A stretch of 64,000 nucleotides of DNA. It comes from Microbispora hainanensis. Lineage in GTDB: Bacteria > Actinomycetota > Actinomycetes > Streptosporangiales > Streptosporangiaceae. Where the stretch lies: positions 7,750,001 to 7,814,000 of the forward strand of contig NZ_CP108086.1 in NCBI RefSeq assembly GCF_036186745.1. The letters are read 5' to 3'. The notes under the pieces were generated by a model, which was given only the letters and a program-made list of their open reading frames with translations, had not been told where the DNA came from and did not search any database. The translations under genes were made by a program, and so were the position numbers. This document shows positions 8,482-42,267 of this stretch, in pieces (the first letter of the stretch is position 1; each line of letters opens with the position of its first letter).

Positions 8482-8524
8482 ATGGTAAGAACGGGTCCGG
8501 CGGCGGCTCAGCTCAAGATTGAGC
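8482..8524 (-). promoter_or_regulatory. cluster-regulon promoter before the PKS at 8431
   Basis: The palindrome GCTCA-AGAT-TGAGC lies at 8511-8524 and overlaps the stop codon of the upstream adenylation gene. A TACCAT hexamer on the minus strand at 8487-8482 starts 24 nt from the palindrome edge. A transcript would begin near 8475 and give a leader of about 44 nt. The same palindrome-to--10 geometry recurs across the cluster. Confidence 0.7.
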
Positions 8525-10072
8525 GCCCAGGCGGCGCAGAGCCCGCTCGCGCAGCGCCACCCGGTCGGCCTTGCCGTTGCGGCTCAGCGGCATCTCGTCC
8601 AGCGGCCACAGGTGCCGCGGCAGCATGTACGGCGGCAGCCGGTCGGCCAGCCGCGCGGCGAGCGCGGCCGTGTCGGCGCCTCCACCGGCCACGAACGCGA
8701 CCAGGACCTTCCCGGTCTCGTCGTCCAGCGCGAACACCAGCGGCTCGCAGCCGGGCGCGGCCTCGCGCAGCGCGTGCTCGACCTCCGCCAGCTCGACCCG
8801 GTAGCCGTGGATCTTCACCTGGGAGTCGTCCCGGCCCAGGTGCACCAGCCCCGCCTTGTCGTCGAGCCGGACCCGGTCGCCGGTGCGATACCACGTCCTG
8901 CCGTCGGCCTGGTGGAACCGGCCCGCGTCGTTGGCCGGGTCGAGGTAGCCGCGGAACATCTGCGGGCCGGTCATGCACAGCTCGCCGGTCCGCTGGCCGG
9001 GCTCGGCGTCCTGGCCGAGCATCAGGAAGTCCATGCCGTCGTTGGGGTAGCCGATCGGCACGGTCTCGCCCTCCCAGTCGAGCGGCTCGCCCGCGGGCCA
9101 GCGGTAGGCCGTGCAGGCGATCGTCAGCTCGGTCGGGCCGTAGATGTTGTCGAGGGCGGCGTCCGGGGCGGCCGCCCGCATCGCCCGTGCGGTCTCGACC
9201 GGCAGCGGCTCTCCGCAGAAGACCGCGTAGCGCAGCCCGGCGAGCGACCCGGGCGCGAGCGCGTCCCTGGCCCGCACCGCGTTGACCAGGCTGGGGGTGG
9301 CATGCCAGACGGTCAGGCCGTACGACCGGACGTACCGGGCCGGGTCGAGGGCCTGCAGCCGGGTCAGGGCGCACAAGCAGGCCCCGCTGCCCCAGGCCAT
9401 GAAGATGTCGAACATCGCCAGGTCGAAGGTGAGGTCGTACACCTGACTGAAGCGGTCGCCGGGGCCGACGTCGTAGCGCGGCAGCGACGCCCGCAGGAAC
9501 GCGCTCACGTTGCGGTGCGCGATCGGCACCCCCTTGGGCCGCCCTGTGGACCCCGAGGTGAACAGCACGTACGCGACGTCCTGCGGCGTGCGGCCCGACG
9601 GCGGCCGGAAGGAGTCCGCGTCGTCGTCGCCGGGCACCCGCACGGGCACTCCGGCCGGCGCTCCGGTGTCGGCGTCAACGGCGTCGGAGGCCAGGACGAC
9701 GCGGACGCCGGCCGCCTCGGCCACGCGCGCCGCCTGCGCGGCCCCACCGGCGTCCACGACCAGGGAGTCCACGCCGGCGGCGCGGGCGATCTCCGCGTTG
9801 CGCTCGGCCGGCGCCTCCAAGCCGAGCGGCACGGCCGCGGCTCCGGCGTACAGGGCGGCCAGCAGGCCGATGTACGCCTCGACGCTCTTGTTCGCGAGCA
9901 GCCCCACGCGGCGCGGCGCCCGCCCGCCCTCGGTCAGCGCGGCGGCCCAGGCGCGGGCCCGCCGGTCCACCTCCGCGTACGAGAGGGTCACGGCGTGCAC
10001 CCGCAGAGCCGGGCCGCCGGGATCGCGGGCCAGCCCGTCGAGGAACCATTCGTCCAGCAGCCGCTCCGTCAT
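8513..10072 (-). CDS. stand-alone adenylation enzyme (LnmQ-like, D-Ala or small amino acid)
   Basis: A 519-aa free-standing AMP-forming adenylation enzyme. It would activate an amino acid and load it on a separate carrier protein to start the assembly line. Seen: TSGSTGRPKG phosphate loop, FDLAMFD substrate-pocket stretch, YGPTE, YRTGDR, GYRVEL and the C-terminal NGKAD lysine motif. The FCGEPLP segment carries a Cys at the place where D-alanine-activating DltA proteins have the Cys associated with D-Ala preference. That, and its pairing with a discrete carrier, recalls LnmQ/LnmP of leinamycin, which use D-alanine (from memory). Prolyl-type ligases also share this architecture, so the substrate is not proven. 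ATG 10072 follows AGGAGG at 5 nt. It lies 52 nt after the carrier gene and probably shares its transcript. Confidence 0.9.
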   Translation of the reverse strand: MTERLLDEWFLDGLARDPGGPALRVHAVTLSYAEVDRRARAWAAALTEGGRAPRRVGLLANKSVEAYIGLLAALYAGAAAVPLGLEAPAERNAEIARAAGVDSLVVDAGGAAQAARVAEAAGVRVVLASDAVDADTGAPAGVPVRVPGDDDADSFRPPSGRTPQDVAYVLFTSGSTGRPKGVPIAHRNVSAFLRASLPRYDVGPGDRFSQVYDLTFDLAMFDIFMAWGSGACLCALTRLQALDPARYVRSYGLTVWHATPSLVNAVRARDALAPGSLAGLRYAVFCGEPLPVETARAMRAAAPDAALDNIYGPTELTIACTAYRWPAGEPLDWEGETVPIGYPNDGMDFLMLGQDAEPGQRTGELCMTGPQMFRGYLDPANDAGRFHQADGRTWYRTGDRVRLDDKAGLVHLGRDDSQVKIHGYRVELAEVEHALREAAPGCEPLVFALDDETGKVLVAFVAGGGADTAALAARLADRLPPYMLPRHLWPLDEMPLSRNGKADRVALRERALRRLGAQS

Positions 10073-10124
10073 CAGTCCTCCTGAAGCTCGAACCGCACCG
10101 CAACCGGCGGCCCCGCGACCGGAG

Positions 10125-10388
10125 TCAGGGCCGGCCCGACGTCGCGCGCAGCCGGGTCAGCAGCGCCCACGCGCTCCCCGGCGTCCGGAAGTTGGCGGGC
10201 ACCAGCTCCTCGTCGGGGAACGTCACCCCGTACGCGTCCTCCAGCGCCGCGATGAGCCCCACGGTCGCCACCGAGTTCAGGCCGAAGGCCGCCATCACAA
10301 GGTCGGGTGCGAGCGGGGCGCCCTCCGGCAGCGTGGGAAGGTACGGCCGCAGGACGCTCTCGAACGTCTCGTCCCAGTGGTCGGTCAC
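10125..10388 (-). CDS. discrete acyl/peptidyl carrier protein (LnmP-like)
   Basis: An 87-aa carrier protein. The phosphopantetheine serine is in FGLNSVA about 45 residues in, followed by the usual helix II and III pattern. It probably receives the aminoacyl group from the adenylation enzyme encoded immediately downstream and presents it to the first condensing domain. GTG 10388 is chosen because the carrier fold starts just after it (TDHW); the longer upstream reading is arginine-rich and untypical. The Shine-Dalgarno (AAAGG) is weak and rather distant. It is the first gene of the two-gene unit driven by the regulon promoter at 10518-10560. Confidence 0.88.
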   Translation of the reverse strand: MTDHWDETFESVLRPYLPTLPEGAPLAPDLVMAAFGLNSVATVGLIAALEDAYGVTFPDEELVPANFRTPGSAWALLTRLRATSGRP

Positions 10389-10517
10389 CGTTCGGTCCGC
10401 CTTTCGCACTCGATCGACGTCGCGCCTATGACGGCGGCGCGCCATGCGAGCGTGCGGTGTGGCGGCCCGCACGCGGTCCGGGCGCCTGGGGGGCGCAGGC
10501 CCGCCGCGTACCGCCGG

Positions 10518-10589
10518 ATGCTAGGCAGGCGCGCCGGGCCGATGCCGCTCAAAGTTGAGCAGACGGCCGCGGGCCGGTCTGGCGACGAT
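10518..10589. promoter_or_regulatory. divergent cluster-regulon promoter (carrier protein / SDR-hydrolase)
   Basis: The perfect palindrome GCTCA-AAGT-TGAGC lies at 10547-10560 between divergent genes. Leftward, TAGCAT (10523-10518) begins 24 nt from its edge. Rightward, GACGAT (10584-10589) begins 24 nt from the other edge and would start transcription at about 10596-10597, which is the ATG of the SDR-hydrolase gene. One dimer could serve both promoters. Confidence 0.65.
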
Positions 10590-40944: not shown

Positions 40945-41649
40945 TCAGTGGCCCATGCCGAGGCCGCCGTCCACCGGGACGACGGCGCCCGTGATGTAGG
41001 ACGCCGCCTCCCCTGCGAGGAACACGACGACCCCGGCCACCTCCTCGGGCACGGCCGTACGGCGCAGCGCGATCTGCCCGAGCACCTCGGCCCGCCGCTG
41101 CTCCGTCAGCGAGTCGGTCATGTCGGTGCGGACGTATCCCGGGGCCACCACGTTGACGGTGATCCCCCGGGAGCCGAGCTCGCGGGCGAGCGACCGCGCC
41201 AGCCCGACCATCCCGGCCTTGGCCGCCGCGTAGTTGGCCTGCCCGGCCGCGCCGGACAGGCCGCTCACGGACGAAATGAAGATCATCCGGCCGCGCCGCA
41301 TGCGCAGCATCGGCCCCACGGCGCGCCGTGCCACACGGAACGCGCCGGTGAGGTTGGTGTCGAGGACGCCGGTGAAGGCGGCCTCGTCCATCCGCATCAG
41401 CAGCATGTCGGCGGTGACACCGGCGTTGGCGACGAGGACCTCCACCGGGCCGTGCCGCTGCTCCACCTCGGTGAACGCGCGGTCGACCGCGGCAGCGTCG
41501 GTCACATCGCAGCGCACGCCGAACAACCCGTCCGGCGCGCCGCCGCCTCGATGGGTGACCGCCACCCGGTCGCCCTCCTTCGCGAACGCCCGTGCGATGG
41601 CCAGGCCGATGCCGCGGTTGCCGCCCGTCACCAGCACCGAGCGGCTCAT
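40945..41649 (-). CDS. 3-oxoacyl-ACP reductase-like SDR (FabG family)
   Basis: A 234-aa classical SDR. Seen: TGGNRGIG nucleotide-binding loop, NAGVT, the catalytic Ser in ISSVSG and the Tyr-x-x-x-Lys YAAAK, and the C-terminal [10 protein letters not shown] typical of FabG/MabA. It reduces 3-oxoacyl thioesters with NADPH. It is on the same strand as, and upstream of, the NRPS-PKS gene, but a regulon promoter lies between them. It may be a primary fatty-acid reductase at the cluster edge or a pathway reductase; the glycine-rich ending favours the former. ATG 41649 is clear by homology, but no strong ribosome site is visible. Confidence 0.9.
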
Positions 41650-41757
41650 GCCACTCCCTCGCCTCCGGCTCGGAGTCCGATAGTGCCGGAGGCGCGCGAT
41701 TCGGCACCTCGCCGGGCGCTGTGCCTGACGGCTCGCTCGCCACGCTCGCTCATACCG

Positions 41758-42192
41758 TCACCAGTCCCACCGGCCCATCGGGGGGAACGGGGCCTGATAG
41801 GCGTCCGGCGCGTCGTGCGACACCTTCGTGGAGAAACCGGCCGCCCGGGTCACCTGCCTGGTGAACGCCTGCCGGAACCGGGCGTCGCCCGGCAACCCCG
41901 CCTCGTCCGCCGCCCGCAGCATCAGCTCCACGAACCGGTCGCGCTGCTCGTCGGTGATCTTCAGGCCCTGGTGGGCCCGGAAGATCGCCTCGAACCCGCC
42001 GAGCTCGTCACTGAAACGGCTCGGGCCGCCCATCATCTCGACGAAGAACGCGGTCAGGTTCTCGGCGTGGTGAGCGGACCCGTACTCGAACAGTTTCTTG
42101 AGCAGCGGATCGCGCAGCACGGATTCATGGAAGTGCTCGGCGAACTTGCGCAGCGCCGCCTCGCCGCCGACATGTTCGTACATCGTCGTCAT
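41758..42192 (-). CDS. group II truncated hemoglobin (trHbO-like)
   Basis: A 144-aa globin of the 2-on-2 fold. It has the Tyr and Gly residues near the N terminus (MYEHVGGEAAL), an FxxFF-like AFFVEMMGG stretch and the proximal histidine in FRAHQGL. Actinobacterial trHbO proteins bind oxygen and support NO or peroxide detoxification or electron transfer to flavoenzymes. ATG 42192 follows GGAGG at 5 nt. A degenerate copy of the cluster palindrome precedes it at the normal spacing, so it could serve the FMN oxidase or later oxygenation steps; this link is tentative. Confidence 0.93.
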   Translation of the reverse strand: MTTMYEHVGGEAALRKFAEHFHESVLRDPLLKKLFEYGSAHHAENLTAFFVEMMGGPSRFSDELGGFEAIFRAHQGLKITDEQRDRFVELMLRAADEAGLPGDARFRQAFTRQVTRAAGFSTKVSHDAPDAYQAPFPPMGRWDW

Positions 42193-42224
42193 CGCAGCCT
42201 CCTCGGAACGCCTGGGCTGGCGTC

Positions 42225-42267
42225 ACGGTAGGCGGCGGGCGGTCGCCGATTCTGCTCAAAAGTGGAC
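42225..42267 (-). promoter_or_regulatory. possible degenerate regulon promoter before the globin
   Basis: A good left arm GCTCAA at 42254-42259 faces a poor right arm. TACCGT at 42230-42225 begins 24 nt away and would give a ~25-nt leader containing GGAGG. The spacing fits the regulon but the dyad does not, so this may be a weak or relic site. Confidence 0.35.

Follow-up and report, generated by a model that had tools for sequence, protein, structure and literature searches.

Which protein reads the short palindrome GCTCA-N4-TGAGC that recurs between the genes of a biosynthetic cluster in Microbispora hainanensis (Streptosporangiaceae), with -10-like hexamers at a nearly constant distance? 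The stretch analysed, hereafter the window, covers 64 kb (genome positions 7750001-7814000) of the single-contig 8.8 Mb genome, and window positions are genome positions minus 7750000. Our own gene calling and Pfam scans placed a trans-acyltransferase (AT) polyketide synthase (PKS)/nonribosomal peptide synthetase (NRPS) cluster in the window and its left flank. With a probability of about 0.9, we take the palindrome to be the operator of a CRP/FNR-family (LnmO-type) activator that the cluster itself encodes and that would bind it in a class II position. A dimer is predicted to bind TGCTCA-N4-TGAGCA, centred near -41.5, at promoters without a -35 element, and to recruit RNA polymerase to a -10 starting 23-24 nt from the palindrome edge; since the site is symmetric, one copy could serve two divergent promoters. 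The analysis establishes the sites, their spacing and enrichment, the presence of the regulator gene and the joint occurrence of sites and regulator across many genomes; from these we infer regulator binding, transcription-start positions, activation rather than repression, and operons.

Candidate operator sites and their enrichment

All the sites named in the sequence-only reading were located, and five of them were exact copies of GCTCA-N4-TGAGC. Offsets are 0-based, offset 22 or 23 denoting a hexamer that begins 23 or 24 nt from the palindrome edge. The exact site GCTCAAGATTGAGC (8511..8524), between an A-domain gene and a large PKS gene, had the -10-like hexamer TACCAT (8482..8487, -) at offset 23, facing the PKS gene, whose start is near 8431. 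In the divergent intergenic region containing the exact site GCTCAAAGTTGAGC (10547..10560), TAGCAT (10518..10523, -) at offset 23 faced the acyl carrier protein (ACP) and A-domain genes (10472 to 8513), and a weaker GACGAT (10584..10589, +) lay at offset 23 on the far side, towards alpha/beta-hydrolase and methyltransferase genes. The exact site GCTCAATCCTGAGC (14516..14529) lay between a PIG-L gene (-) and a DUF3224 gene (+), with a weak, loose hexamer, CATGAT (14552..14557, +), at offset 22 towards DUF3224.

The site GCGCAATGTTGCGC (20013..20026) was the variant GCGCA-N4-TGCGC, in which, as proposed, symmetric, compensating changes in both arms retain the palindrome; its hexamer TAGCGT (19985..19990, -) at offset 22 pointed to DUF6039, AT/ER and DUF6039 genes (19888 to 15647). 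A second divergent intergenic region held the exact site GCTCACCATTGAGC (31596..31609), with the weak, loose TAGAAC (31568..31573, -) at offset 22 towards ECH, AT, PKS and MFS genes (31545 to 20129), and the expected GACGAT (31633..31638, +) at offset 23, weaker than the main hexamers, towards a phosphopantetheinyl transferase gene (31727 on). The exact site GCTCAGGATTGAGC (40872..40885) had TAGCTT (40844..40849, -) at offset 22, towards an NRPS-PKS gene and a thioesterase gene. The weak copy GCTCAAAAGTGGAC (42254..42267) was present as well, with TACCGT (42225..42230, -) at offset 23 towards globin and SDR genes (42192 to 40945), but with two mismatches its sequence by itself does not reach significance. 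An eighth site, an exact palindrome with a strict TANNNT, lies at genome 7731731-7731744, outside the window and 18 kb to its left. The hexamers stood at the distances of 23-24 nt claimed for them, but TAGAAC (31596) and CATGAT (14516) fit TANNNT only loosely; strict TANNNT at offset 22/23 accompanied 8511, 10547, 20013, 40872, 42254 and 7731731.

Judged from gene order, the eight sites would lead about ten transcription units. Six inferred units had a strict TANNNT, namely P450 with a ferredoxin-like open reading frame (ORF; the latter named by eye), PKS-HMGS-ACP-KS, ACP-A, DUF6039-AT/ER-DUF6039, NRPS-thioesterase, and globin-SDR behind the weak palindrome. The four with a looser hexamer were hydrolase-methyltransferase, DUF3224 (or PIG-L), ECH-AT-PKS-MFS and the phosphopantetheinyl transferase. 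With eight sites over about ten such units, a single regulator would be enough to turn on the pathway as a whole.

The exact palindrome occurred five times in the window against a mean of 0.08 in shuffled sequences, an excess of about 60-fold, and none of 100 shuffles reached five. Genome-wide, it was found at 14 places (5 for the reversed-pattern control), with 6 of the 14 falling within a 59-kb part of this cluster and 8 in the remaining 8.7 Mb (Poisson P about 3e-11). When the palindrome was combined with N22/23 and TANNNT, only four places remained in this genome, all in the cluster, and the reversed control gave none. Matches with up to two mismatches were set aside as evidence, their count in the window (42) being near the chance level (shuffle mean 33.85; 11 of 100 shuffles reached 42).

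The regulator and its relatives

The search of the flanking sequence for a CRP/FNR-family gene, suggested by the sequence-only reading, located one in the same cluster, 16 kb left of the window. This gene (genome 7733532-7734206, +; L016:13532-14206) encodes a protein of 224 aa, P0001, with Pfam cNMP_binding (PF00027, E 1.5e-16) and HTH_Crp_2 (PF13545, E 1.6e-13) domains, and its best PDB sequence matches were CRP/FNR-type regulators such as 4cyd and 3d0s (down to 1.4e-20). The recognition helix read GTTRSRVG in 10 of 11 aligned regulators. The cAMP-binding residues of CRP include an Arg-Ser pair; in the same 11 rows the GE of the pocket was present in 10 and an arginine (R87) was invariant, without a clear counterpart of that pair. 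No N-terminal cysteine was conserved in the 11 rows, in contrast to FNR with its Fe-S cluster, and two cysteines of the sensor domain were conserved (C39 in 9/11, C66 in 11/11). The cysteine at residue 66, in a GKxCLL-like motif, was also present in 45 of 49 wider relatives (duplicates included), and C66 might serve in redox or thiol sensing.

The claim that the palindrome is the master control of the cluster agrees with the number of sites, but the gene for the regulator appears not to belong to the regulon in this genome. A perfect 11-bp hairpin overlaps the 3' end of the ferredoxin-like ORF, and there is no copy of GCTCA-N4-TGAGC in the stretch between the ferredoxin-like gene and the regulator gene; because of this hairpin, autoregulation through the 7731731 site, with the regulator as part of the P450 operon, was judged unlikely. 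A terminator scan requiring a T-run found none, and it showed a single weak promoter-like pair ahead of the regulator gene. Between the hairpin and the regulator gene the DNA is AT-rich and repeats the word TAAGC (TTAAGC-N7-GCTTAA), possibly the site of an upstream regulator; the hairpin and this stretch together occupy genome 7733344-7733531 (L016:13344-13531).

Protein searches found the regulator in 1 of 15 genomes of its own genus (the source genome alone), in 9 of 341 genomes of the family at E 1e-25 and in 5 of 394 genomes of an even sample of the class; these searches often scored only the best 7-8 first-look candidates per genome, and failure to find a regulator does not prove that it is absent. 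Relatives were found in 2 of 274 genomes of the class to which the Pseudomonas genome belongs, one being that genome itself, and in the phylum of locus L119 in 35 of 148, its own included. Ten neighbourhoods were fetched, leaving out the two lowest matches (G046 and G350, 34-35% identity), whose helices have the GASRETVNK sequence of ordinary CRP paralogues, and all ten contained the exact palindrome. A contig scan of named genomes gave no match with a single protein as query and 49 loci with an alignment query, the loci being chosen partly by their helix pattern. The exact palindrome occurred in 29 of these loci, at 46 sites, and the next palindromic word with three G/C occurred 9 times. Among the 20 loci without an exact site, 14 had a copy with a single mismatch and a TANNNT at offset 21-24; in ten of these the copy read GTTCA-N4-TGAGC.

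Removal of nine duplicates (L072, L073, L076, L077, L079, L080, L109, L118, and L090) from the 49 loci, and addition of the own region and the ten fetched relatives, gave 51 neighbourhoods of 6 to 114 kb. The exact palindrome was found in 31, and another 14 had a copy that differed at one position and was followed by TANNNT at the expected distance. These neighbourhoods held 67 exact sites with 134 sides, for which 4160 other palindromes in the same DNA (8320 sides) served as control. TANNNT at offset 22/23 was found on 43 of the 134 palindrome sides and on 18 of the 8320 control sides, and 40 of the 67 sites had it on at least one side. The hexamer started at offset 22 on 21 sides, at 23 on 22, at 21 on three and at 24 on one, with all remaining offsets from 0 to 40 together accounting for 8 sides. 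On the 91 TANNNT-free sides, [ACG]ANNNT (mostly GACGAT) lay at offset 22/23 in 22 cases (284 of 8320 control sides), and any other single offset reached at most 7 sides.

Alignment of the 43 sides extended the consensus to TGCTCA-N4-TGAGCA (T in 39/43, A in 34/43), and no -35-like hexamer preceded the -10 in them, the columns reading C-A-G/T-C/G-C, which is not TTGACA-like. Strict TANNNT was found on both sides of three of the 67 sites and at three further places in G085, G213 and G314; all six share the core GCTCAGTCTTGAGC and probably represent a single orthologous promoter. Further sites are flanked by a weaker second hexamer.

The spacing was also retained far from the actinobacteria. Photorhabdus and Xenorhabdus loci (L114:9798-11040 and L113:9804-11649; G+C 0.37-0.41) had one site before the regulator gene and another before a PKS gene; the hexamers were TATGTT or TACGTT (offset 22) and TATAAT or TATAGT (offset 21). 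Over the 20 kb covered, these loci resemble a different trans-AT PKS cluster, with Pfam scans run on Photorhabdus only.

A blind scan of the 341 family genomes with the whole module (palindrome, N22/23 and TANNNT) returned 39 places in 16 genomes, against 18 in 15 for the reversed control. Seven regulator-bearing genomes accounted for 28 of the 39, with four each, some about 62 kb from the regulator; G340, which also bears the regulator, and G314 had two each, and seven genomes had one each. The ninth regulator-matching genome, G046, had none. Single places represent the background level, because the reversed control gives 18 in 15 genomes. Ten further stretches were fetched (G314, G340 twice, and the seven singles) and compared with the cluster at E 1e-8. 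Thioesterase, PIG-L, AT/ER and ECH homologues surrounded the module in G314; one G340 stretch had cluster-like genes and the other only general ones (MFS, A domain), and no cluster-gene homologues were found within 18-20 kb of the seven single places. In G314 (L152; G314:C67:14701-34700), the two-way operator stands by the thioesterase and PIG-L homologues; those of AT/ER and ECH follow 8-10 kb further on. No regulator match was found in G314 at E 1e-25, and its activator may be missing, diverged or elsewhere.

Weighing the explanations

Single palindromes across the -35 are common repressor operators, and the site could belong to a different factor, the CRP/FNR gene being a mere neighbour. 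That no such site immediately precedes the regulator gene in this genome, and that G314 has the two-way module with no regulator match, are in line with this view. However, there is no -35-like sequence at the right distance, hence nothing obvious to repress, and the tight spacing to the -10 suits an activator. Moreover, in Photorhabdus and Xenorhabdus the site is again found with this regulator subfamily, upstream of the regulator gene itself, and LnmO is recorded as a positive regulator in the part of the literature consulted (PMC7105598). A different factor or a repressor is therefore considered unlikely. Conservation through shared ancestry of the intergenic DNA, with no binding function, would account for the fact that most neighbourhoods have several genes in common with this cluster and that several strains are near-identical. 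Yet, in six aligned DUF6039 promoters GCTCA, TTGAGCAGGC and TAGCGT were invariant, whereas only 4 of the 18 intervening columns were; non-homologous promoters within one cluster have the palindrome and its spacing in common, and the module is kept in Photorhabdus and Xenorhabdus, all of which makes shared ancestry very improbable. The lowest probability of all falls to chance palindromes, or to RNA hairpins or terminators of a G+C-rich genome, despite the near-shuffle count of two-mismatch matches, the control-level count of a relaxed motif (below) and the overlap of site 8511 with a stop codon. Exact copies far exceed the shuffles, the same word and spacing recur in distant bacteria, and chance is already contradicted by the counts in the 49 loci, the own genome, the 341 genomes and the 51 neighbourhoods; no T-run follows the site, and since it lies upstream of the -10, a hairpin would not be in the message that it precedes.

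Several observations nevertheless weigh against an operator of the cluster's own activator. The genome-wide scan with the relaxed pattern GCKCA-N4-TGMGC, which the sequence-only reading had proposed, gave 48 matches and its reversed control also 48; this pattern was dropped, and the specificity therefore lies in the exact palindrome plus spacing, the form in which the scan did single out the cluster. At 27 of the 67 exact sites TANNNT was absent from offset 22/23 on both sides, and six of seven promoters preceding MFS homologues in relatives had no TANNNT. Six of the 51 neighbourhoods (L075, L086, L087, L088, L112, and L119) had, within the DNA covered, neither an exact site nor a one-mismatch copy with correctly spaced TANNNT, although the L075 genome has three exact sites 57-69 kb away. 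Nine G+C-richer palindromic words outnumbered GCTCA in the 49 loci, with 47 to 115 copies each, and these loci had been selected partly by their helix. Many relatives are close kin, so the counts are not independent; the excess of 39 over 18 places is confined to cluster-bearing genomes, and another DNA-binding protein of the same clusters could read the site.

The cluster's own activator is still preferred as the reader of the palindrome, and its helix fits the changed half-site. CRP reads TGTGA-N6-TCACA, with E181 and R185 (CRP numbering), the glutamate and arginine/lysine of the helix, contacting the half-site. Aligned to GASRETVNK, the GTTRSRVG helix has S at E181 and Y, F, H or others at R185, which replaces the residues that contact TGTGA and is compatible with GCTCA. 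A broader proposal is held only a little more firmly than its opposite: CRP/FNR proteins with this helix may be a distinct specificity class that reads TGCTCA-N4-TGAGCA and travels with trans-AT polyketide clusters across phyla, the symmetric operator acting as a two-way class II switch in which one dimer serves two promoters facing away from each other. A related code may extend to Nitrospirota proteins of the GTTRSRVS type. In 13 loci with such helices (L122-L134), the exact palindrome was absent within roughly 3.5 kb (0/13), one-mismatch copies occurred in five, none of which had a TANNNT at offset 20-25, and no palindromic word was conspicuous by its frequency. Three of the 13 loci have one-mismatch copies that keep TCA-N4-TGA near the regulator gene (L122:1355, L123:2133, and L126:2138), which is not significant alone.

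Cluster content and relation to known systems

The cluster encodes A-domain and carrier proteins, an NRPS with a nitroreductase-type oxidase domain, AT and AT/ER-type proteins, an HMG-CoA-synthase cassette, a P450 and two DUF6039 proteins. The largest PKS (7104 aa) continues beyond the window on its left side, and its terminal domains are PF09924, PF01212 (beta-eliminating lyase) and an alpha/beta-hydrolase at the thioesterase position, on which the Thioesterase Pfam model scored under its cut-off. PF09924-PF01212 is taken as the DUF-SH didomain of the leinamycin family, PF09924 being assigned by position; this domain order places the cluster in that family, whose didomain and PKS domain order are described in the part of PMC8479088 consulted. 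The two DUF6039 proteins (15647-16570 and 18989-19888, -) are encoded on either side of the AT/ER gene; homologues are common in related loci and in six relatives lie immediately below an operator with TAGCGT. The bacterial-globin-like gene (41758-42192, -) adjoins the SDR gene, and among the relatives searched only G340 had a globin homologue, preceded at 87 bases by a one-mismatch copy of the palindrome. A tRNA-Thr gene (anticodon CGT; 13577-13668, -) lies inside the cluster, between the methyltransferase and PIG-L genes.

P0001 resembles E. coli CRP and the actinobacterial CRP/GlxR proteins in its cNMP-binding domain, its HTH_Crp_2 domain and its predicted two-fold operator in a class II-like position, and differs in the proposed site, GCTCA-N4-TGAGC in place of TGTGA-N6-TCACA. 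The site of FNR is TTGAT-N4-ATCAA, and FNR has an N-terminal Fe-S cysteine cluster; the 5-4-5 layout and the class II-like position are shared with it, whereas the half-site differs and the regulators described here have no conserved N-terminal cysteine cluster.

That a Crp/Fnr-type protein, LnmO, activates leinamycin biosynthesis in Streptomyces atroolivaceus is already known, in agreement with the sequence-only reading (consulted parts of PMC7105598, PMC6001450, PMC7113386), and a review links cAMP to leinamycin biosynthesis in the part consulted (PMC6001450). P0001 is likewise a CRP/FNR-family regulator tied to a leinamycin-family cluster, being encoded in one whose PKS has the DUF-SH didomain; its orthology to LnmO is presumed from cluster type and not from LnmO sequence, no record named S. 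atroolivaceus having come up in the scan of named genomes. LrgR2, the largimycin activator, is another cluster-specific activator of a leinamycin-family cluster; neither its protein family nor its binding site is stated in the consulted part of PMC9396626. No published LnmO operator, fixed spacing, two-way use or spread was found in the mostly open-access literature searched, a scope outside which the original LnmO study (Huang et al. 2016) falls. Relative to that literature, the operator site proposed here for a leinamycin-type activator would be new.

Such a site offers a direct test of the activator's targets and a list of promoters to study. The palindrome with its spacing also serves as a DNA beacon: the blind scan of 341 genomes flagged the cluster-gene homologues of G314, which the regulator search at E 1e-25 had missed. 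The retention of the GKxCLL-like cysteine in most wider relatives makes redox or thiol sensing by the sensor domain worth testing. If true, the proposal would add to the CRP/FNR superfamily a recognition code with much natural variation, together with natural two-way class II promoters.

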